Shown here: positions 13,810-25,289 of the stretch, piece by piece
Layout: each line of letters begins with the position of its first letter
Numbering within the stretch: position 1 is the stretch's first letter
Source of the DNA: an uncultured Oscillospiraceae bacterium
GTDB lineage: Bacteria > Bacillota > Clostridia > Oscillospirales > Oscillospiraceae
Direction of reading: 5' to 3'
DNA: 56,883 bases
Assembly (NCBI GenBank): GCA_947632005.1
Contig: CANRNU010000013.1
Location: 1 to 56,883 of the forward strand
Position numbers and translations under genes: made by a program
The notes under the pieces: generated by a model
The model's input: the letters and a program-made list of their open reading frames with translations, nothing else
Told to the model about the DNA's origin: nothing
The model's database searches: none

Positions 13810-14454
13810 TCAGTCCATTACCCGCTCGATGGCCCTGCGCACCACAGGCGCTGCCGCCGCATAGCCTGCGGCGTTTGGATGGAGCCCGTCGTCGGAATAG
13901 CGCCCGTCCAGACGCCCGTCCTCGGCCTGCAGGGCCGGGAACACGTCCGCGTACTGGTAATTCAGCTCCTTCGCCCACGCCTCCAGGCAGGCGTTCACCT
14001 CCCGGATGACGCCGGTGAAATACAGCTCCTCCCCCTCCGCCACAGGATAGACGGACTGGACCACGACCTTCGTCCGGGGCAGCTCTTCATGGATGCTCTG
14101 TACGATGCGGCGCAGGTTCTCCTTTACCTCGTCCCCGCCCCAGCCCAGGAGGATGTCGTTGATGCCCCCATGGACCACCACGATCTCCGGCTGGGCGGCA
14201 TATACCCGGTCCAGCCTGTCCAGCATGCCCGCGGTCGTATCCCCGGCAATGCCCTGATTGACCGTCTCCAGTCCCGGATAACAGGCCGGCAGGTCGCAGA
14301 ATTCGGTGATGCTGTCTCCCAAAAAGACCACCGCCCCTTCCGGCACAGGCCGGGCCGGTCGGGAACTCTCCCAGAAGAGCAGCCCGCCGATGCCTGCCAG
14401 CGTGACCGCCGCCAGGCATTTGGCCGCCGTCAGTCCCCTGCGTCTCTTCCCCAT
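13810..14454 (-). CDS. SGNH/GDSL-family hydrolase, membrane-anchored or secreted
   Basis: 214 residues. A short basic start (MGKRRRG) and one hydrophobic segment at residues about 10-27 suggest an N-terminal anchor or uncleaved signal. The catalytic fold shows FLGDSIT (Ser48), NQGIAGDTT (block II), GGIND (Asn99, block III) and DDGLHPN (Asp189, His192). It resembles lysophospholipase/acylhydrolase TesA-like members; the natural ester is unknown. RBS AAGGAGAGGAC precedes ATG 14454. The start lies 35 nt after the stop of the kinase gene on the same strand, so the two are probably co-transcribed. Confidence 0.87.
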   Translation of the reverse strand: MGKRRRGLTAAKCLAAVTLAGIGGLLFWESSRPARPVPEGAVVFLGDSITEFCDLPACYPGLETVNQGIAGDTTAGMLDRLDRVYAAQPEIVVVHGGINDILLGWGGDEVKENLRRIVQSIHEELPRTKVVVQSVYPVAEGEELYFTGVIREVNACLEAWAKELNYQYADVFPALQAEDGRLDGRYSDDGLHPNAAGYAAAAPVVRRAIERVMD

Positions 14455-14489: not shown

Positions 14490-17400
14490 TCAGGCAAACA
14501 GCTCCGACGTCCACTGGCCCGGCACCAGCCCGCCCGGCAGATAGGCGGCGTGGATGACGGTCTTTCCGCTCAGATAGCTGTCCACCTGCCCATAAAACGC
14601 CTCCAGGTCCGCATCGCTGATCTCGCCCGCCTCGTTGGGCTGCGTATATCCCTCGCCGACGCCCAGCCAGGCCGTCGGGCACCGGTTGCCGTATCTGTCC
14701 AGCCAGAAGGTCTCCACCTCCAACGTGCCCCAGCCGGTCCACATCGCGTTGGTATACTCGATGAGAAATGCCTCGCCGGTGCTCTGGTCGGTGGTCAGAT
14801 ACAGGTTGAGGGTCCCGCCGTGGGGCATATCCGAGCCGTACGCGATCTCAAACTTCTGCACGGCGCCGTCCGCCACCGTGAGCACGTTCGCGGTGAGCAT
14901 GACGTCGTCGGCGTCGCTGATGACATAGACCAGATCGGTGATGCCGTCATGGGTCACATCCGCCCGGGCGGCCTCGCAGTCGGCGTTGACATTGCTCTGC
15001 CAATAGCTGCGTATCATCCCCCAGCTCTCCTCCTCGGTGACGCCCGCGCTGACGGTCTGGCTGGCGATGGCCATGGGGTCGTCGACGTACTCGTAGGAAT
15101 AGGTGGTGGTCTCCGTGGCCTGTCCGTTCTGCACCACGGTGACCTGGGTCAGGTTGCCGTTCTCGTCGTAGGTGTTCTCATACACTATGTCGTCCTCCCC
15201 GGTGAAACCGGACTCCGGCAGGAATCTGGACGTCATGGAGGTCATATTCCCGTAGCCGTCGTAATACGTCGTCCGCTCCGACGGGTCGGAGATGGGGTCG
15301 CCCGGGTAGTAGGTGCTGGACAGGGCGCCGCTGCCGTCATAGGTGTATTCCTCCACCGCCGCATAGGACTCCCAGCCCGGCTCCAGGGATGTGGGCATGT
15401 CGGTGGGAACATAGCACACCCGTCCGGTGATGCGGTCGTTGTCATCGTACTCATAGGAGTAGGCCAGGGTCACGAACAGCATGCCGTCATAGCTGGCCCA
15501 GCTGATCTCCTCCGACAGCCGGTTCCTCTCGTCATAGGTATAGTCCGTGTACTCCCAGTCACCGGTGCGCCGGCGCACCAGCTGGTCCGCCGCGTCATAC
15601 TCATAGGTGACGGTATAGAGCAGTTCCTCTCCGCTGTCAATGTCGGTCCGATAGACGTCCTCCGACGTCAGTTTGCCGTACTGGTCATAATGGCACACCG
15701 TCCGGGTATCCACGCCGTCCCCCTGCAGGATCTGGGTGCTGCTCTCGGTCTTCCGCCAGATCTTCGGGATCGTCGGGTCGCCCACCGGCACGGGCACCAT
15801 CCCGTCCATCGTCTCTTCTTCCGGCACAGCCTCTTCTTCCGGCATGGCCTCTCCCTCCGGCACGGGCTCCATCGGCGTCTCCGGCTCAGCCGTCTGGGTC
15901 TGTCCGGTCCCATCGCCGGTGGTGTACTGCCCCAGCTGTTCCTCCAGGTCCCGGATGCGGTCCTCCATCTCCTCCACCTTCTGCTGCAAGGTGTCCTTTG
16001 CCTCGCCGCTCATGGTATCGCTGCCGGTACCGGCCAGCAGTTCTTCCAGCAGGTCCCGGTAATGCTCGGCGTTGGTCAGGTCTCCGTTGTTTGCATATGT
16101 ATCGCCGGCGATGCCGTAGCTGTTGCCCGGTCGGTCGCCGGTCAGGCAGTCAGGTTCGATGCTCCCCGCCTTGTCATAGTCCGCGGCGGCGTGCAGGAAC
16201 TTGTCCTCTGCCTCGTCGGTCATCTCCACGGACATGTCGGGATTCAGCTCCATCTCCTCCTCGCCCCAGCTGTAATAGGCCTCCGCCCGGTTCAAATAGG
16301 CGTCCGCCTGGGAGGGGTCCATCTCAATGGCGTCGGTAAAGGACGCCACAGCGTCCTCATATTTCTGCTGCTGCAAGTATTTCAGCCCCAGGTCCATGGC
16401 CTCCTGCCGGGCCTTTCCGCCCCCGGAAGACCGGAAAAAGAGGAAGTACGCCGCCGTGGCCAGCACGATCAGCCCCACCACGCCCGCGGCGGCCACAAGG
16501 CCAACGATGAGCCCGGTATTCGATTTCTTTTTCACCGGCGCCGCGGGGACCGGGACCTGCACCGGCTGGACAGGCGGTCTGGGCGGGGCCTGGTATGGGG
16601 CCTGATACGGGGCCTGGCGCGGCGGTCGGACGTTTGCCTGGGCCTGCATCAGGACGGGGATATCCTCCTCAACGACCGTCGGCGACGGCATGCCTGCCGC
16701 GCTCCCCGGCCCGGCGGCGCCGCCCCGGGCGGCCAGGAGGGCATTTTTCATCTGGGTGGGGCTGTCAAAGCGGTCATCCGGCAGGAAGGCGGTCGCCTTG
16801 GCGATCACCGCCGCCAGTCTCCCCTTGGCGTCGCAGGGCAGCGGCAGGGGCTCCCCCCGCAGGCGGCGCTCCTGGGCGCTCTCCACGACGGAGTAGTTGA
16901 ACGCCTCCGGAGACACCGGGAAAAAGGGCAGCCGCCCCTGGTTCATCATCTGGTACAGTACCAGCCCCAGGGAATACATGTCCGCCCGGGCCTCATACCG
17001 CTGGCCCCGGTAAACCTCCGGCGCCATATAGTTGCACGTCCCCTTCCGGCTCATGACGCTGCCCGTCTGGGCCATGGTCCGGGCGATGCCGAAGTCCCCC
17101 AGCTTGAAGTCCCCGTTCTTGGACACGAAGATATTCTCCGGCTTGATATCCCGGTGCAGGATCCCGTATTTCCCGCACAGTTCCAGCGCCTGGCAGATAT
17201 CCGCCCCCAGGCGGATGACATCCTCCTCGTCCAGCTTCCGCTGCTGAAGATAGACGTTCAGCGGCGTCAGAAGCTCCATGCGGATGAGGATGTCCCAGCC
17301 GGAGCCGTCCTCCCGGGGCACCACCTTGTGGTCCTCATAGCTGACGATATGGCTCGTACCCTTCAGCTCGGCCATGAGGGATATCTCCTTGACGAAGTCC

Positions 17401-17633
17401 TCCACCATGGAGCGGAAGTATCCGTCTGTCTCCGCCTCGGTCAGGCCGCTGCTGCGAATGGCGCTGCGCTCCGCAGCCGACGGCGGCACGGAGATCACCT
17501 TCAGCGCCGCCTCATACACGCCGCCGAATTCCTCTCTCTCGATGCGCCAGACCTTGCCGAAGCTGCCCTCGCCCAGCTTCTCGCAGATCTTCCAGTCTCC
17601 CATCACATATTCGCCGATCTGATATGTACTCAT
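14490..17633 (-). CDS. Membrane Ser/Thr protein kinase with TPR and YD-repeat extracellular region
   Basis: 1047 residues. The kinase domain covers 13-305: GEGSFG (21-26), Lys45, HRDIKPEN (160-167), DFG (180-182), KGTCNYMAPEVY. A Pro/Gln-rich linker (306-367) leads to a single membrane segment (about 373-400). Outside are TPR-like helices (410-530), a short coiled coil (541-568) and an acidic Pro/Glu linker (580-620). A tract of YD/RHS-type repeats follows (about 645-850: YDQYGKLTSE, YEYDAADQLVRR, YDERNRLSEE, YDGYGNMTSM, YDENGNLTQV), then a C-terminal FG-GAP-like segment with DVTHDGITDLVYV. Bacterial Hanks kinases more often carry PASTA sensors; a YD-repeat ectodomain is unusual. Upstream is an extended -10 (TGATACAAT). 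The gene is followed closely by an SGNH hydrolase. Confidence 0.9.
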   Translation of the reverse strand: MSTYQIGEYVMGDWKICEKLGEGSFGKVWRIEREEFGGVYEAALKVISVPPSAAERSAIRSSGLTEAETDGYFRSMVEDFVKEISLMAELKGTSHIVSYEDHKVVPREDGSGWDILIRMELLTPLNVYLQQRKLDEEDVIRLGADICQALELCGKYGILHRDIKPENIFVSKNGDFKLGDFGIARTMAQTGSVMSRKGTCNYMAPEVYRGQRYEARADMYSLGLVLYQMMNQGRLPFFPVSPEAFNYSVVESAQERRLRGEPLPLPCDAKGRLAAVIAKATAFLPDDRFDSPTQMKNALLAARGGAAGPGSAAGMPSPTVVEEDIPVLMQAQANVRPPRQAPYQAPYQAPPRPPVQPVQVPVPAAPVKKKSNTGLIVGLVAAAGVVGLIVLATAAYFLFFRSSGGGKARQEAMDLGLKYLQQQKYEDAVASFTDAIEMDPSQADAYLNRAEAYYSWGEEEMELNPDMSVEMTDEAEDKFLHAAADYDKAGSIEPDCLTGDRPGNSYGIAGDTYANNGDLTNAEHYRDLLEELLAGTGSDTMSGEAKDTLQQKVEEMEDRIRDLEEQLGQYTTGDGTGQTQTAEPETPMEPVPEGEAMPEEEAVPEEETMDGMVPVPVGDPTIPKIWRKTESSTQILQGDGVDTRTVCHYDQYGKLTSEDVYRTDIDSGEELLYTVTYEYDAADQLVRRRTGDWEYTDYTYDERNRLSEEISWASYDGMLFVTLAYSYEYDDNDRITGRVCYVPTDMPTSLEPGWESYAAVEEYTYDGSGALSSTYYPGDPISDPSERTTYYDGYGNMTSMTSRFLPESGFTGEDDIVYENTYDENGNLTQVTVVQNGQATETTTYSYEYVDDPMAIASQTVSAGVTEEESWGMIRSYWQSNVNADCEAARADVTHDGITDLVYVISDADDVMLTANVLTVADGAVQKFEIAYGSDMPHGGTLNLYLTTDQSTGEAFLIEYTNAMWTGWGTLEVETFWLDRYGNRCPTAWLGVGEGYTQPNEAGEISDADLEAFYGQVDSYLSGKTVIHAAYLPGGLVPGQWTSELFA

Positions 17634-17728: not shown

Positions 17729-17758
17729 GGGACAGGGCGGGTATGCCCGCCCTATCCC
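17729..17758. terminator. Stem-loop at the end of the serpin gene
   Basis: GGGACAGGGCGGG and CCCGCCCTATCCC pair with one mismatch around a TATG loop. The serpin stop codon is in the stem. There is no T-run, so read-through into the kinase gene is possible. Confidence 0.5.
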
Positions 17759-18999
17759 ACCTGGGTCATCGCGCCGATAAACAGCGGGACCTGGTGCTCA
17801 CAGTCCAGGAGCAGATAGAGGAACGGTCTGTCCAGCGTCACCGTCCTGACCGGGCCCGGCATGGACATGGCCACAAAATCCACCGCGATGGCGGCCCCTG
17901 CCTCGGTGCCCTCCTCATTTACCGAGATATAGGTCCTGTGCTGGACCTGGTCGATACGCAGTTCGCCTGCCGCCGCCTCTGCCAGCCGGGAAAAATCCGC
18001 CTTTTGGCCGTCAAAGGCGTCGGTCATGCCCAGCGCACCCAGCACGCCGGTCAGGTCCGCCCCATACCCGGCCGTGAACTTGGGGATATCCGCCTCCACA
18101 AGGGTCCTCTCCCCCTCTGCCAGCAGAGCCCGCAGCCGCTCCCCTGTCAGGGATGCCACGTAATCCTGCAGCGGGACGCCCTCCTCCGGCAGCAGCGCCG
18201 CAAAGGCGTAATCCCGGCCTTCGTAATATTTCACGAATCCGACGGCGTCCGTATCCTGCAGATATACCTCCTCTGTGGAGTGCATCAGCTCCACGTCCTG
18301 GCTCTCACCGTTCCCGGCGGTAAAGGTCCCGGCCTGTACCTGATCCTCCCGGTAGATGTTCTCCCACTGCCCGTCAAAGGCCAGGGCGTTGACCAATATC
18401 ATCACCTTGTCCGGCGACAGCTCATCCAAAATGCCGTCGATCCGGCCACCGGTATTGTCCGACACCCAGGCGTTGACAGCGTCCCGCGTATCGCTGTCAA
18501 AGACCGTCTCAAAGGCGCCGGCTCCATACCAGCGCTCATTGGCCTGCAAAAACTCCGGGCGTACCTTCAGACCGCTCTCGCTGTTGACCCAGATCCCATT
18601 GGCCAGATGGACCCCGTTCCCCTCCTCCGAGGGCAGGGCCTGCACATAGTCGTGCAGACAGGCGTTCAGCTGTTCCGTCCGGATGCCCAGGACCTCCTCC
18701 ATCTGCGCCAGGGTCTGCCCATCCGCGCCGTTGGCCGCCATGGCCAGCGCCTCCACCGCGGACAGCGGCGAGACCAGCGTGTTGTCCCCCTGAAAGCACG
18801 CCTGAAACAGCTCCATGCCGAAGCCGGCCACCGCGTTCTCCCAGGGTACGGCCTCCGCCGTCTCCTCTGCCTGTCCCGCGCCGGACGTCTCCGCCGGGGG
18901 CGGCGGTTCCACTCCCTGGCCCACCTGGTCCCGGCTCCCGCACCCGGTCATGAACAGCGCCAGCGCCAAGGTCAAAAAGCCTGCAGATATGCGCTTCAT
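17752..18999 (-). CDS. Lipoprotein serpin (serine protease inhibitor)
   Basis: 415 residues. The signal peptide ends in a lipobox with Cys20 (LALFMTGC), so it is anchored at the cell surface. The serpin fold follows: NTLVSPLSAVEALAMAANGA, ILVNALAFDGQWENIY, FAALLPEEG, TLVEADIPKF, and DRPFLYLLLD near the end. The reactive loop is complete: hinge EEGTEAGAAIA (P17-P7, residues 362-372), then VDFVAM-SMPGP. Counting from the hinge gives P1 Met378 and P1' Ser379, the same pair as human alpha-1-antitrypsin. That predicts inhibition of elastase-like proteases; this is inference. The alanine/glycine-rich hinge suggests an inhibitory rather than a storage serpin. RBS AGGGGTG precedes ATG 18999. Confidence 0.93.
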   Translation of the reverse strand: MKRISAGFLTLALALFMTGCGSRDQVGQGVEPPPPAETSGAGQAEETAEAVPWENAVAGFGMELFQACFQGDNTLVSPLSAVEALAMAANGADGQTLAQMEEVLGIRTEQLNACLHDYVQALPSEEGNGVHLANGIWVNSESGLKVRPEFLQANERWYGAGAFETVFDSDTRDAVNAWVSDNTGGRIDGILDELSPDKVMILVNALAFDGQWENIYREDQVQAGTFTAGNGESQDVELMHSTEEVYLQDTDAVGFVKYYEGRDYAFAALLPEEGVPLQDYVASLTGERLRALLAEGERTLVEADIPKFTAGYGADLTGVLGALGMTDAFDGQKADFSRLAEAAAGELRIDQVQHRTYISVNEEGTEAGAAIAVDFVAMSMPGPVRTVTLDRPFLYLLLDCEHQVPLFIGAMTQVG

Positions 19000-22251: not shown

Positions 22252-23517
22252 TCACTGCTCCGGTATCTGCGCCGGGACGGCCTTCACATACTCTCCGGAC
22301 ACATACCCCTCGCTGCCCTTATAGATCACCTGATACCAGCCGTCCTTCTGGCCCACATAGACCAACTGGGTCCCCTTGCTCACCGTGCCGAGCCGGTCGT
22401 GCTCCGTGCCGGGCCCTGTACGCACGTTCAGCTCCGCGGAGGCGGCGGCCACGCCGGCTGTTCCGTCCTCCGGGACGAGCCGCACGAGCTTTTCGGAGAC
22501 GTAGCCCACAGCGCCCTCGTATTCCACCTGATACCAGCCGTCCTCTTCGCCGGCACAGGCCAGCACCGTCCCAAGGGCAGCCGTCCCGAGGACCTCGCTG
22601 TCCGCATCCGGCGCGGACTGCACATTCACCTCCGCCGGGGCGATGAGCCAGGTCCCCTCCGCCGGGACCGCTTCCTCCGGGGCCCGGTCATGGCGGCCCG
22701 TCTCCAGTACCGGCTGACCGGCAGCACCGCCGCGCCTGTCCATGGGGACGCTGTCATTGCCGAAAAAGACGCCCTCGTCCCGGTCCACCCGAAGGTAGCT
22801 GTGCTGAAAATAACCGGTCCCCTCCAGCACATAGGCATCGGACCCATCCCACCGGACGCCGGGGCTGAAATAGCTCTCCGCCGGTCCTTCACAGGACGAG
22901 ACCGTATCGGTATAGACGATCTGGCCGCTCACCGCGCCGTCAGAAAAGTCAGCGATCTCCAGCTGCATATACCTGGCGCCGGGACCGGCGGTCTGTTCCG
23001 TCCACGTCCCCGACAGCGCCGTCCAGTCCTCCGTCTCGTCCAGGACCTCCGGCTCAGACTGGGCCGCCCAGGCGCTCTTGGCATAGCGGAAGGTCACTCG
23101 CTCCGTCCGCTCCACATCGCAGTATGTATGGGTCTCGGGATAGCGGTACTCCATCACCTGCACCCGGCCGCGGTCCTCCTCATGGCGCCCCAGCAGCTCT
23201 GTCCCCGCCGGCAGCATGGCCAGGGCCTCCTCGTCGGTAAGGGCGGGCGGCGCGCTGGACAGGACCACCACCGCCGTCACCGCCACGACCGCCACCGCGG
23301 CCAGGATCGCCAGCAGCACCATCCGCCCATGGGACAGCCGGGGCTTCCCGCTCTCCGGCTCCGGCACAGTTTCCAGCTCCGGCACAGCCTCCGGCCCCGG
23401 CACGATCTCCGGCTCCGATACAGTCTCCGGCTCCGGCGCAGCCGTCAGGGGCGCGCCGCAGTTGGCGCAGAACGCCGCATCCTCTATATTCTCCGTCCCA
23501 CAGCTCTTACAGATCAT
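22252..23517 (-). CDS. Zinc-ribbon, single-pass membrane protein with two SH3 domains
   Basis: 421 residues. Residues 1-21 are a zinc ribbon (CKSCG...CANCG). A low-complexity Pro/Glu-Val region with a repeating PEPE-type unit spans 27-56, and a membrane segment 66-88. A domain of unknown function follows (about 90-285), ending near FFGNDSVPMDRRGG. Two bacterial SH3 domains close the protein (about 300-350 and 360-415), each with DGWYQV...GYVS. SH3b domains usually bind cell-wall peptides, so the C-terminus is likely outside, with the zinc ribbon inside. It overlaps the upstream TPR lipoprotein gene by 4 bp (ATGA), so the two are translationally coupled and probably work together. Confidence 0.82.
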   Translation of the reverse strand: MICKSCGTENIEDAAFCANCGAPLTAAPEPETVSEPEIVPGPEAVPELETVPEPESGKPRLSHGRMVLLAILAAVAVVAVTAVVVLSSAPPALTDEEALAMLPAGTELLGRHEEDRGRVQVMEYRYPETHTYCDVERTERVTFRYAKSAWAAQSEPEVLDETEDWTALSGTWTEQTAGPGARYMQLEIADFSDGAVSGQIVYTDTVSSCEGPAESYFSPGVRWDGSDAYVLEGTGYFQHSYLRVDRDEGVFFGNDSVPMDRRGGAAGQPVLETGRHDRAPEEAVPAEGTWLIAPAEVNVQSAPDADSEVLGTAALGTVLACAGEEDGWYQVEYEGAVGYVSEKLVRLVPEDGTAGVAAASAELNVRTGPGTEHDRLGTVSKGTQLVYVGQKDGWYQVIYKGSEGYVSGEYVKAVPAQIPEQ

Positions 23518-25289
23518 TCCGCATCCTCCATCGTCTCCGGCGCGGTGTCCGACACGACCGGCGCGTACGCCGTCCCACAGAATACGTAGGTGCTCCCGGC
23601 AGTCTGGCCGTACACGATGCCGTCAGACAGGAGCGTCATGTAAAGGCTCTCCCCCATGGGGACCACCTCATACCGGTACGTCCCGGGCTCGTAGCCCTCG
23701 GCGGCCATGGTCATCGCCAGTTCCTGACCGTCCACGGCATACTCTCCGCTCTGCCGGCCAGAGGGCGTCCCGGGGAAATACCCTCCCTCGTCGGTGCAGG
23801 TCATGTCCCCCCCGAAGCGGATCGTCAGGGCAAACACCTCGGTGCTGTAGCCCATATCCATCAGCCCGGTCCAGCTGTCCCCGCTCAAGTGTCCGCACAG
23901 CGCCTCGTCTGCCGCGGTCACGTCCGCACCCAGCGTCAGCGGCGTCCCGAACACGAACTGCCCCGCCTCGTCAGCCAGCAGGGCTCTGTTCCCGTCCTCT
24001 GTCTGCTCCTGCAGCACACAGCCGGGCAGGCACAGGTACAGCCGCCCGTCCCGGAAGAAATGGTCCACATCCTCCAGTTTTTCCCATGTCCCGAAGCCGT
24101 CCGCCTCCGCCGGGACGGTCAGCTGTTCCTCGTCCAGCACCCATCCGGTCAGGAGCCGGAAGTAGTCCAGCAAAGCGTCCTCGCCCACCGGGAACAGCTC
24201 ATCCAGCACCGTATCGGCCCCGGCGGTATCCTCCGGCAGATGGCCCAGCATCGAGGCGGCGAGCTGCTCTGCCTGCCCGTAGCTCTCCCAGGTGCCGGTG
24301 GCGCCCTTCTCCTGGAGCGACGCGCGGTGATCCCGCGCCGCGGCCAGACCGGCGGTCTCCTCCTCGGTCAGGTCCTTCTCCACTGTCCAGGCCAGGGCCT
24401 CCATGAGGCCGTATGCCCTCTCATAGAGGGCCCCGGCGCCCGCCGCCTGGGTATCCTCTGTCCAGTTCAGCCGTCCGTCGGCCGCCTCACCCAGCAGCCC
24501 CCGCTGCCAGCGCTCATACATCTGCCGGTACGGGGTCTCCGCCAGCCGAAGCTCCAGTTCCCCGCCCTCCGCCGGTCCGGAGGCAAGCTGCGTGTAATAG
24601 CTGCCCCGGTCCGGGTCATAGGTCCAGTCATAGGTCCCGCCGTCCTCCGCCGTGATATGCAGGGCAAAGCCCTTGTTGTCATAGGTCAGCGGCTCCACGG
24701 CCCCTGTCTCCGGGGCCATGACACGGCCTGTGCCGTCCGGAAGGAACGCATAGTACCGGCTGTCCGGCGCGTCCATATACCAGGCGGACGCCGTCAGGAT
24801 CTCGCCCGTCAGCTCCGCCGCCTGGTCCCGGACCTGTTCCGCGTCCTCATCGGAGGCGGCGGCCATGGCGGTGCGCAGGTAGCTGAGCGCCTCGTCGATG
24901 GCGCCGGCGTCCAGCGCCGCCGTCCCCAGGGCCGTATAGACCTCATAAATATGCTCCCCCTGGGAGGGGTCCAGCTCCAGGGCTATCTCATAGTCCCGGA
25001 GGGCCAGACTCTTCATGTCGGGGCCGTCCTCCGCCTGTTCCTCCGCCAGGGCCATATAGCTGTCGGCACGGCCCAGATAGGCCGCGGCCTGGTCGTCTCC
25101 GGCCTCGATGGCCCGGGAAAACGCCTCCACAGCACTGGCATAGTCCCCCTGCCTCATAGCCTTTGTCCCGTCCTCGCGATAGGCCGGCGCCGGCGTGGCC
25201 TCGGGCGGCTGCGTCTCCGCCGTCCCGCCGCAGCCGGCCAGCCCCAGCGCCAGACAAAGCGCGGACAACAGTGCCAGTGTTTTCCTCAT
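23514..25289 (-). CDS. TPR-containing lipoprotein of unknown function
   Basis: 591 residues. Lipobox LGLAGC (Cys20). Residues about 38-160 hold TPR-like helix pairs (GTKAMRQGDYASAVEAFSRAIEAGD, LRDYEIALELDPSQ, AIDEALSYLRTAM). Beyond that is a long unrecognised region that includes beta-rich stretches with YYAFLPDGTGRVM and TYDWTYDPDRGSYYT. These resemble lipocalin-like META/expression-level domains, and a second such stretch near the C-terminus contains GTYRYEVVPMGESLYMTLLSDG. I do not recognise a named family. It is surface-anchored and is the first gene of a two-gene unit with the zinc-ribbon/SH3 protein. Its promoter is clear (25363-25391). Confidence 0.8.
   Translation of the reverse strand: MRKTLALLSALCLALGLAGCGGTAETQPPEATPAPAYREDGTKAMRQGDYASAVEAFSRAIEAGDDQAAAYLGRADSYMALAEEQAEDGPDMKSLALRDYEIALELDPSQGEHIYEVYTALGTAALDAGAIDEALSYLRTAMAAASDEDAEQVRDQAAELTGEILTASAWYMDAPDSRYYAFLPDGTGRVMAPETGAVEPLTYDNKGFALHITAEDGGTYDWTYDPDRGSYYTQLASGPAEGGELELRLAETPYRQMYERWQRGLLGEAADGRLNWTEDTQAAGAGALYERAYGLMEALAWTVEKDLTEEETAGLAAARDHRASLQEKGATGTWESYGQAEQLAASMLGHLPEDTAGADTVLDELFPVGEDALLDYFRLLTGWVLDEEQLTVPAEADGFGTWEKLEDVDHFFRDGRLYLCLPGCVLQEQTEDGNRALLADEAGQFVFGTPLTLGADVTAADEALCGHLSGDSWTGLMDMGYSTEVFALTIRFGGDMTCTDEGGYFPGTPSGRQSGEYAVDGQELAMTMAAEGYEPGTYRYEVVPMGESLYMTLLSDGIVYGQTAGSTYVFCGTAYAPVVSDTAPETMEDAE

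Follow-up and report, generated by a model that had tools for sequence, protein, structure and literature searches.

A gene on the minus strand at positions 14490..17633 of a 56,883-nucleotide stretch of DNA from an uncultured Oscillospiraceae bacterium (contig CANRNU010000013.1, hereafter the window) encodes a receptor-type Ser/Thr kinase, an orphan member of a family of receptor kinases with exchangeable ectodomains that are probably of the sort found with the T7SSe and T7SSj variants of the type VII secretion system (T7SS). As judged from sequence comparisons, this family keeps a conserved kinase and exchanges its ectodomain, the window protein probably being one of several interchangeable surface sensors. 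Below, G000 denotes the genome of the window (a draft of 90 contigs, with completeness of 77.6% and contamination of 5.1%), other G numbers the genomes of relatives, L numbers stretches of DNA and C numbers contigs.

Domain order of the window kinase

The window protein has 1047 aa, free of internal stops, arranged as a Hanks kinase, a Pro-rich linker, one transmembrane (TM) helix, a TPR and coiled-coil part, YD-type repeats and a C-terminal beta domain, all encoded on the minus strand. The kinase domain as assigned with Pfam covers residues 13–301 (16731..17597), with K45, E83, H160, D162, N167 and D180 present, and the Pkinase model matched residues 16–238 (5.5e-37, 128 bits versus a cut-off of 31.7). 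The protein thus has the catalytic Lys (K45), the HRD Asp (D162) and the DFG Asp (D180) of a Hanks-type Ser/Thr kinase, while staying far below the model of the MAD6 defence kinase (NF047741, 99 bits versus a cut-off of 460). Hydropathy gave a single strong maximum, at about residues 374–400 (16434..16514), and as KKK stands immediately ahead of this helix, the positive-inside rule would place the N-terminus and the kinase in the cytoplasm and the remainder of the protein outside. On that outer side follow a TPR repeat at residues 414–455 (16269..16394; Pfam TPR_11 and TPR_16, the former at residues 416–455 with 35.9 bits versus a cut-off of 26.8), a coiled coil at about residues 547–570, as seen by eye, and a Glu/Pro-rich spacer evident in the sequence at residues 581–619 (15777..15893).

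Seven YD-type repeats make up residues 645–850 (15084..15701), with motifs starting at residues 649, 679, 700, 729, 765, 791 and 822 and spanning residues 649–828. Both RHS_repeat (Pfam PF05593, searched against the whole protein, 26.5 bits versus a cut-off of 22) and YD_repeat_2x (NCBIfam, 29.0 bits versus 15.8) scored above their curated cut-offs; in the control for a search of genomes with RHS_repeat, 8 of 14 control genomes had matches at E<=1 and 2 of 14 had matches above the cut-off. Chance occurrence of the motifs was ruled out by 5000 shuffles of residues 640–860, which gave a mean of 0.09 motifs and a maximum of two, using a motif pattern that was composed after the sequence had been viewed. 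The initial annotation of this DNA, made from the letters and their open reading frames, had proposed a receptor-like kinase with an intact Hanks domain, one membrane helix, TPRs, a coiled coil and about 200 residues of YD-type repeats, and all of these features are upheld by the evidence given above. Like Rhs and other YD-repeat proteins, the window protein passes the cut-offs of both repeat models, but it differs from them in having seven repeats within about 200 residues, fused to a kinase; it does not qualify as an Rhs toxin, a large repeat shell ending in a C-terminal toxin domain, with its seven repeats and with no toxin family among its Pfam matches at E<=1. Short YD arrays are also found in DUF3836 and DUF4595 proteins and in small YD proteins, although both DUF models stayed under cut-off for the window protein.

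The C-terminal beta domain, residues 857–1038 (14520..15065), is shared with proteins that have no kinase and contains a D-x3-DGxxD loop, unchanged across all four aligned sequences. This loop is the only feature that speaks for the FG-GAP-like end proposed initially, which the profiles do not support, since no FG-GAP or VCBS model matched the window protein at E<=1; FG-GAP_3 reached 15.7 bits, below its cut-off of 26.9, within the shared C-terminal stretch of a relative (L065). A PDB search with the ectodomain profile returned weak matches to an Rhs protein (E 0.0079) and to a 109-aa uncharacterised protein (E 0.12). An AlphaFold model of residues 600–1047 had a strand ladder in the YD part, but as it was built from three sequences, with a mean predicted local distance difference test (pLDDT) score of 43.7, we claim no fold for this region.

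A scan of the genome contig collection with the whole window protein gave zero loci; the same collection searched with the ectodomain alignment gave two, both from uncultured Oscillospiraceae, and among 300 genomes of the family Oscillospiraceae the ectodomain search found two, that of the window and one weak match. A viral origin of the ectodomain was considered and rejected, as no relative was found in the viral collection.

Outer parts of the kinase family

Members of the kinase family were found in 7 of 60 genomes of a set of relatives (own included; E<1e-50). Their distribution is patchy: within the order, 34 of the 394 genomes searched had the family (E<=1e-40), and in a phylum sample 3 of 398 (own included). 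G000 itself has six close paralogs of the kinase, with matches stopping near residue 395–405 in five of them and at 301 in one, such that none reaches the YD part. For comparisons of gene neighbourhoods we used 51 stretches carrying 59 family kinases, after removal of five out of 56 (L139, L140, L141, L144 and L145) with kinases scoring below 180 bits. The catalytic Lys and the HRD Asp are present in all 59 kinases and the DFG Asp in 58, with a gap in the remaining one.

This constancy is combined with a wide variety of outer parts. The family alignment covered 53 of the 59 kinases, leaving out one of 1852 aa and five that were short or cut by a contig end, and the Pfam families among 53 kinases scanned include LRR_8 (12), LRR_5 (9), Big_2 (7), RCC1_2 (6), Zn_Ribbon_1 (5) and NPCBM (3). 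Scans of single members added YARHG, DUF6273, LytR_cpsA_psr, TctC, SH3, InlB-type repeats, PASTA and Cu_amine_oxidN1, the outer parts taken together spanning BspA-LRR, Ig-like and YD types among others. Individual architectures include a receptor kinase with a TctC solute-binding domain (L014:8372-11455), another with a LytR-CpsA-Psr domain (L061:3403-5553), the 1852-aa kinase with RCC1_2 matched over 20 stretches (L058:1096-6654) and kinases with a zinc ribbon ahead of them, of which G055 has three and G351 has one.

Pairwise comparisons illustrate the exchange. Two kinases of G000 (L015:3081 and L016:7411) are 98.2% identical in the kinase and 58% in the linker/TM part, with no similarity detected past the membrane helix. 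Conversely, L016 and L053, with 46% identity between their kinases, have in common a C-terminal part that takes in both membrane helix and outer domain (42%, E 2e-43). The window protein has its linker, TM, TPR and YD regions in common with a protein from another genome of its genus (L052; 29% identity, E 4e-49), in an alignment that stops at residue 847; L052 scored 21.2 bits with YD_repeat_2x (cut-off 15.8), with RHS_repeat absent at E<=0.01. The kinases nearest to that of the window (53–54% identity) are those of L107 and L108, with arrays that we call YD-like only, because they scored with DUF2963 (63.2 and 25.8 bits, respectively, versus a cut-off of 22.6), while RHS_repeat stayed under its cut-off of 22 (19.7 bits, L107) and YD_repeat_2x matched neither at E<=0.05.

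Kinase trees were built from 56 of the 59 kinases and then from 38, after rows that were long, distant or partial had been removed. On the first tree, ectodomains were labelled from Pfam matches and by eye, and the groups for topology tests were picked by ectodomain after that tree had been inspected. A single clade of the four kinases with YD or YD-like outer parts (window, L052, L107 and L108) was rejected by the approximately unbiased test (p-AU 0.008), a clade of the window kinase with L052 was borderline (p-AU 0.036), and one of the window kinase with L107 and L108 was not rejected (p-AU 0.076). The latter two proteins (L107:4355-7450 and L108:6583-9456) have kinases that are 92.6% identical, with a non-synonymous divergence (dN) of 0.043, and YD-like parts that are 44.8% identical with a dN of 0.50, more than 10 times that of the kinase; the PP2C proteins are intermediate (68.0% identical, dN 0.22). 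Because, outside the kinase, the synonymous divergence (dS) was saturated or could not be computed, we do not claim positive selection.

YD modules also occur without any kinase. Two proteins (L063 and L065) align with both the YD and the C-terminal parts of the window protein and a third (L020) with the C-terminal part only, all three lacking a kinase and appearing secreted as judged by eye. With YD_repeat_2x (cut-off 15.8), L063 scored 15.9 and L065 14.3, but the latter reached 25.9 with RHS_repeat (cut-off 22). A further protein of G000 (L019:5239-7521, contig C2) combines a zinc ribbon, a Pro-rich linker, a TM helix, a TPR-like part, YD repeats and FMN_bind; it aligns with residues 335–556 of the window protein, the TM-TPR part (E 3e-18), and scored 16.4 with YD_repeat_2x, with no TPR matched by Pfam at E<=0.01. 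By its domain order, it is the TM-TPR-YD module of the window kinase, in which a zinc ribbon stands where the kinase would be. Finally, G000 encodes two small YD proteins, on contigs C8 and C28, with signal-like N-termini by eye. From these kinase-free proteins, the YD block would seem to be an envelope module that this lineage has employed repeatedly, and such short arrays in small, apparently secreted proteins mean that a YD array need not signify a toxin cocoon.

Phosphatase, FHA and type VII secretion neighbours

A paper on the T7SSc–j variants (PMC11217815; Garrett, Higginson and Palmer 2024) describes membrane kinases that differ in their C-terminal part, together with PPM phosphatases, FHA proteins and Rhs proteins as candidate substrates; it suggests control by phosphorylation and gives a TPR outer part for TsjD. 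The kinases there named TsxD, of T7SSc, d, e and j, have, like the window protein, a cytoplasmic kinase with intact active site, a membrane helix and a variable outer part, and their PPM phosphatase, FHA, WXG100, YukD and EssC neighbours are also found beside some relatives of the window kinase. The suggestion in the initial annotation that this could be a kinase of an undescribed kind therefore goes too far, as its family consists of membrane kinases whose ectodomains are exchangeable, some of them in T7SS/PP2C/FHA clusters like those of TsxD. The sensing of carbohydrates or of surface contact, also put forward there, is conjectural. Among the titles and abstract openings surveyed, there was no description of a bacterial kinase–YD fusion or of this ectodomain-swapping family.

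Of the 51 stretches, 19 had a PP2C gene no more than 3 kb from a family kinase, 10 had an FHA protein at up to 6 kb and eight had a T7SS gene at up to 10 kb; these eight represent seven contigs, as L126 and L129 share one. WXG100, YukD, FtsK, vWA-FHA, FHA-ABC transporter or PP2C neighbours were confirmed by Pfam in L017, L052, L053, L055, L057 and L060. In L017, L057, L109–L111, L113 and L134 the kinase adjoins an FHA-ABC-transporter protein or a strong match to one, a possible second output. In G000, contig C4 encodes an Ig-like protein of 1579 aa, a first FHA protein, an FHA-ABC transporter with permease, a paralogous kinase carrying RCC1-type repeats, PP2C, a second FHA protein, YukD, EssC (an FtsK ATPase with FHA) and WXG100. 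The T7SSe components sought matched above cut-off except for the DUF6382 of the second FHA protein (17.0 bits versus 26.7), and TseH, TseK and a second WXG100 were not identified at this locus; by gene content the cluster may be T7SSe/T7SSj-like. The FHA domains of its helper proteins, inspected by eye, retain the majority of the GR, H and NGT-type residues.

Across the 394 genomes of the order, 13 had both kinase and EssC, 21 the kinase alone, 17 EssC alone and 343 neither (Fisher p=6e-8), EssC thus being present in 13 of 34 kinase genomes and in 17 of 360 others. Collapsed to genus, nine genera were shared between sets of 17 and 20 among 169 (p=1e-5). Within the genus of the window, 4 of 35 genomes had the kinase family, seven had EssC and three had both.

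On this basis we lean, with modest confidence, towards the window gene being a surplus sensor of the T7SSe/j-type kinase family that probably acts via FHA and PP2C partners. Several observations weigh against this assignment. The window kinase is an orphan, outside any T7SS cluster seen, and a search of the window with the chosen seeds found no PP2C, FHA, YukD, WXG100 or EssC gene. Compared with TsxD, the protein has a YD ectodomain and a gene outside a T7SS cluster, and the likeness was drawn from published descriptions. In 28 of the 51 stretches, partly since contigs end, there was no PP2C, FHA or T7SS gene. EssC was not found in 21 of 34 kinase genomes, nor a family kinase in 17 of 30 EssC genomes, in order-wide searches that scored the first few candidates per genome, and the Fisher tests account for relatedness by genus collapse only. 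The FHA domain of the G000 EssC, judged by eye in the same manner as above, is without the usual phosphothreonine-binding residues, and neither L107 nor L108 matched YD_repeat_2x at E<=0.05. A PP2C gene beside a Hanks kinase is, moreover, common in Firmicutes and has little bearing on T7SS.

The 28 stretches without such neighbours would suit another possible, although rather unlikely, explanation, namely that the protein is a cell-wall or envelope sensor in the manner of the PASTA kinases, acting on growth or wall enzymes apart from any T7SS, with the YD part binding a wall polymer. PASTA kinases (PknB, PrkC and Stk1) and the mycobacterial PknD with its propeller (PMC6213207) are likewise single-pass Hanks kinases with an outer sensor part. 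The closest PDB matches of the window kinase domain are PknB, and among the relatives PASTA matched two, with 28.6 and 20.1 bits (cut-off 23.2), and LytR_cpsA_psr matched one. The window protein itself, however, has YD repeats with no PASTA repeat matched by Pfam, and scored 133.8 bits with the PknB_PASTA model NF033483, far under its cut-off of 450; the co-occurrence of the family with EssC also argues against this explanation.

It is more doubtful still that the protein acts as a kin or contact sensor whose YD ectodomain recognises T7SS substrates or the YD/Rhs proteins of cells nearby. This idea would fit the fast divergence of the YD-like part in L107 and L108 next to a constant kinase, the weak PDB match of the ectodomain profile to an Rhs protein, and the listing of Rhs proteins as candidate substrates of T7SS variants in PMC11217815. 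Yet with saturated dS the fast change is no proof of selection, and the other above-cut-off RHS_repeat matches in G000, as far as this 77.6% complete genome goes, are short YD proteins only.

The locus and its meaning

Downstream of the kinase gene, an SGNH/GDSL hydrolase with an N-terminal hydrophobic stretch (13810..14454; Lipase_GDSL_2, 114 bits) has its start at 14454, leaving 35 bp between it and the stop of the kinase, and upstream lies a serpin with a lipoprotein-like N-terminus (17752..18999; 274.6 bits), separated by a 118-bp gap. All three genes are on the minus strand, in agreement with the co-orientation noted initially. The shared strand and short gaps might suggest that kinase, serpin and hydrolase form one envelope unit, which we regard as very improbable, because one same-genus genome, G017 (L158), has the SGNH gene (65%), the serpin, a 5-FCL gene and an ATP-grasp gene in window order, with serpin and SGNH adjacent and the kinase absent. 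Among the relatives, 19 serpin loci were compared with no more than 1.5 kb of flank, and of these one had SGNH alongside and none had a kinase relative. The serpin/SGNH context of the kinase therefore looks incidental from gene order, the kinase having been either gained at this locus or lost in G017. A promoter-like site stands ahead of the kinase, but with two such sites in the region, against 1.4 expected, it is no evidence for a promoter. The serpin has relatives in 19 of the 25 genus genomes that were searched for it, own included. Elsewhere in the window, positions 22252-23517 encode a zinc ribbon with two bacterial SH3 domains and the adjoining 23514-25289 a TPR protein with a lipoprotein-like start. 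That the kinase–YD fusion is an assembly artefact, as the fragmentation, incompleteness and contamination of the draft might suggest, is hardly credible given the single open frame and the same kinase-TM-TPR-YD order in L052 (29% identity in the C-terminal part, E 4e-49).

If the window gene is a surplus sensor of the T7SSe/j-type family, a ligand or a neighbouring protein binding the YD part would bring kinases together, and the clustered kinases would cross-phosphorylate before acting on a partner protein read by FHA domains. PP2C would reverse the phosphorylation of the partner, and one output could be control of the T7SS or of an FHA-linked ABC transporter, with the window gene serving as an extra sensor feeding the same FHA/PP2C hub. 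A bolder, and unlikely, extension is a counterpart to receptor-kinase repertoires, in which gene duplication with exchange of ectodomains puts one kinase to many uses, an FHA/PP2C hub that gates the T7SS is shared by several receptors in each genome, and the YD version recognises YD/Rhs proteins of neighbours.

In this bacterial receptor-kinase family a near-constant kinase can evidently be combined with entirely different outer domains, even in two paralogs of one genome. The family offers a natural series for asking how dissimilar outer folds drive one kinase, and it also lets one ask whether the kinase/phosphatase/FHA set beside poorly known T7SS variants controls secretion.

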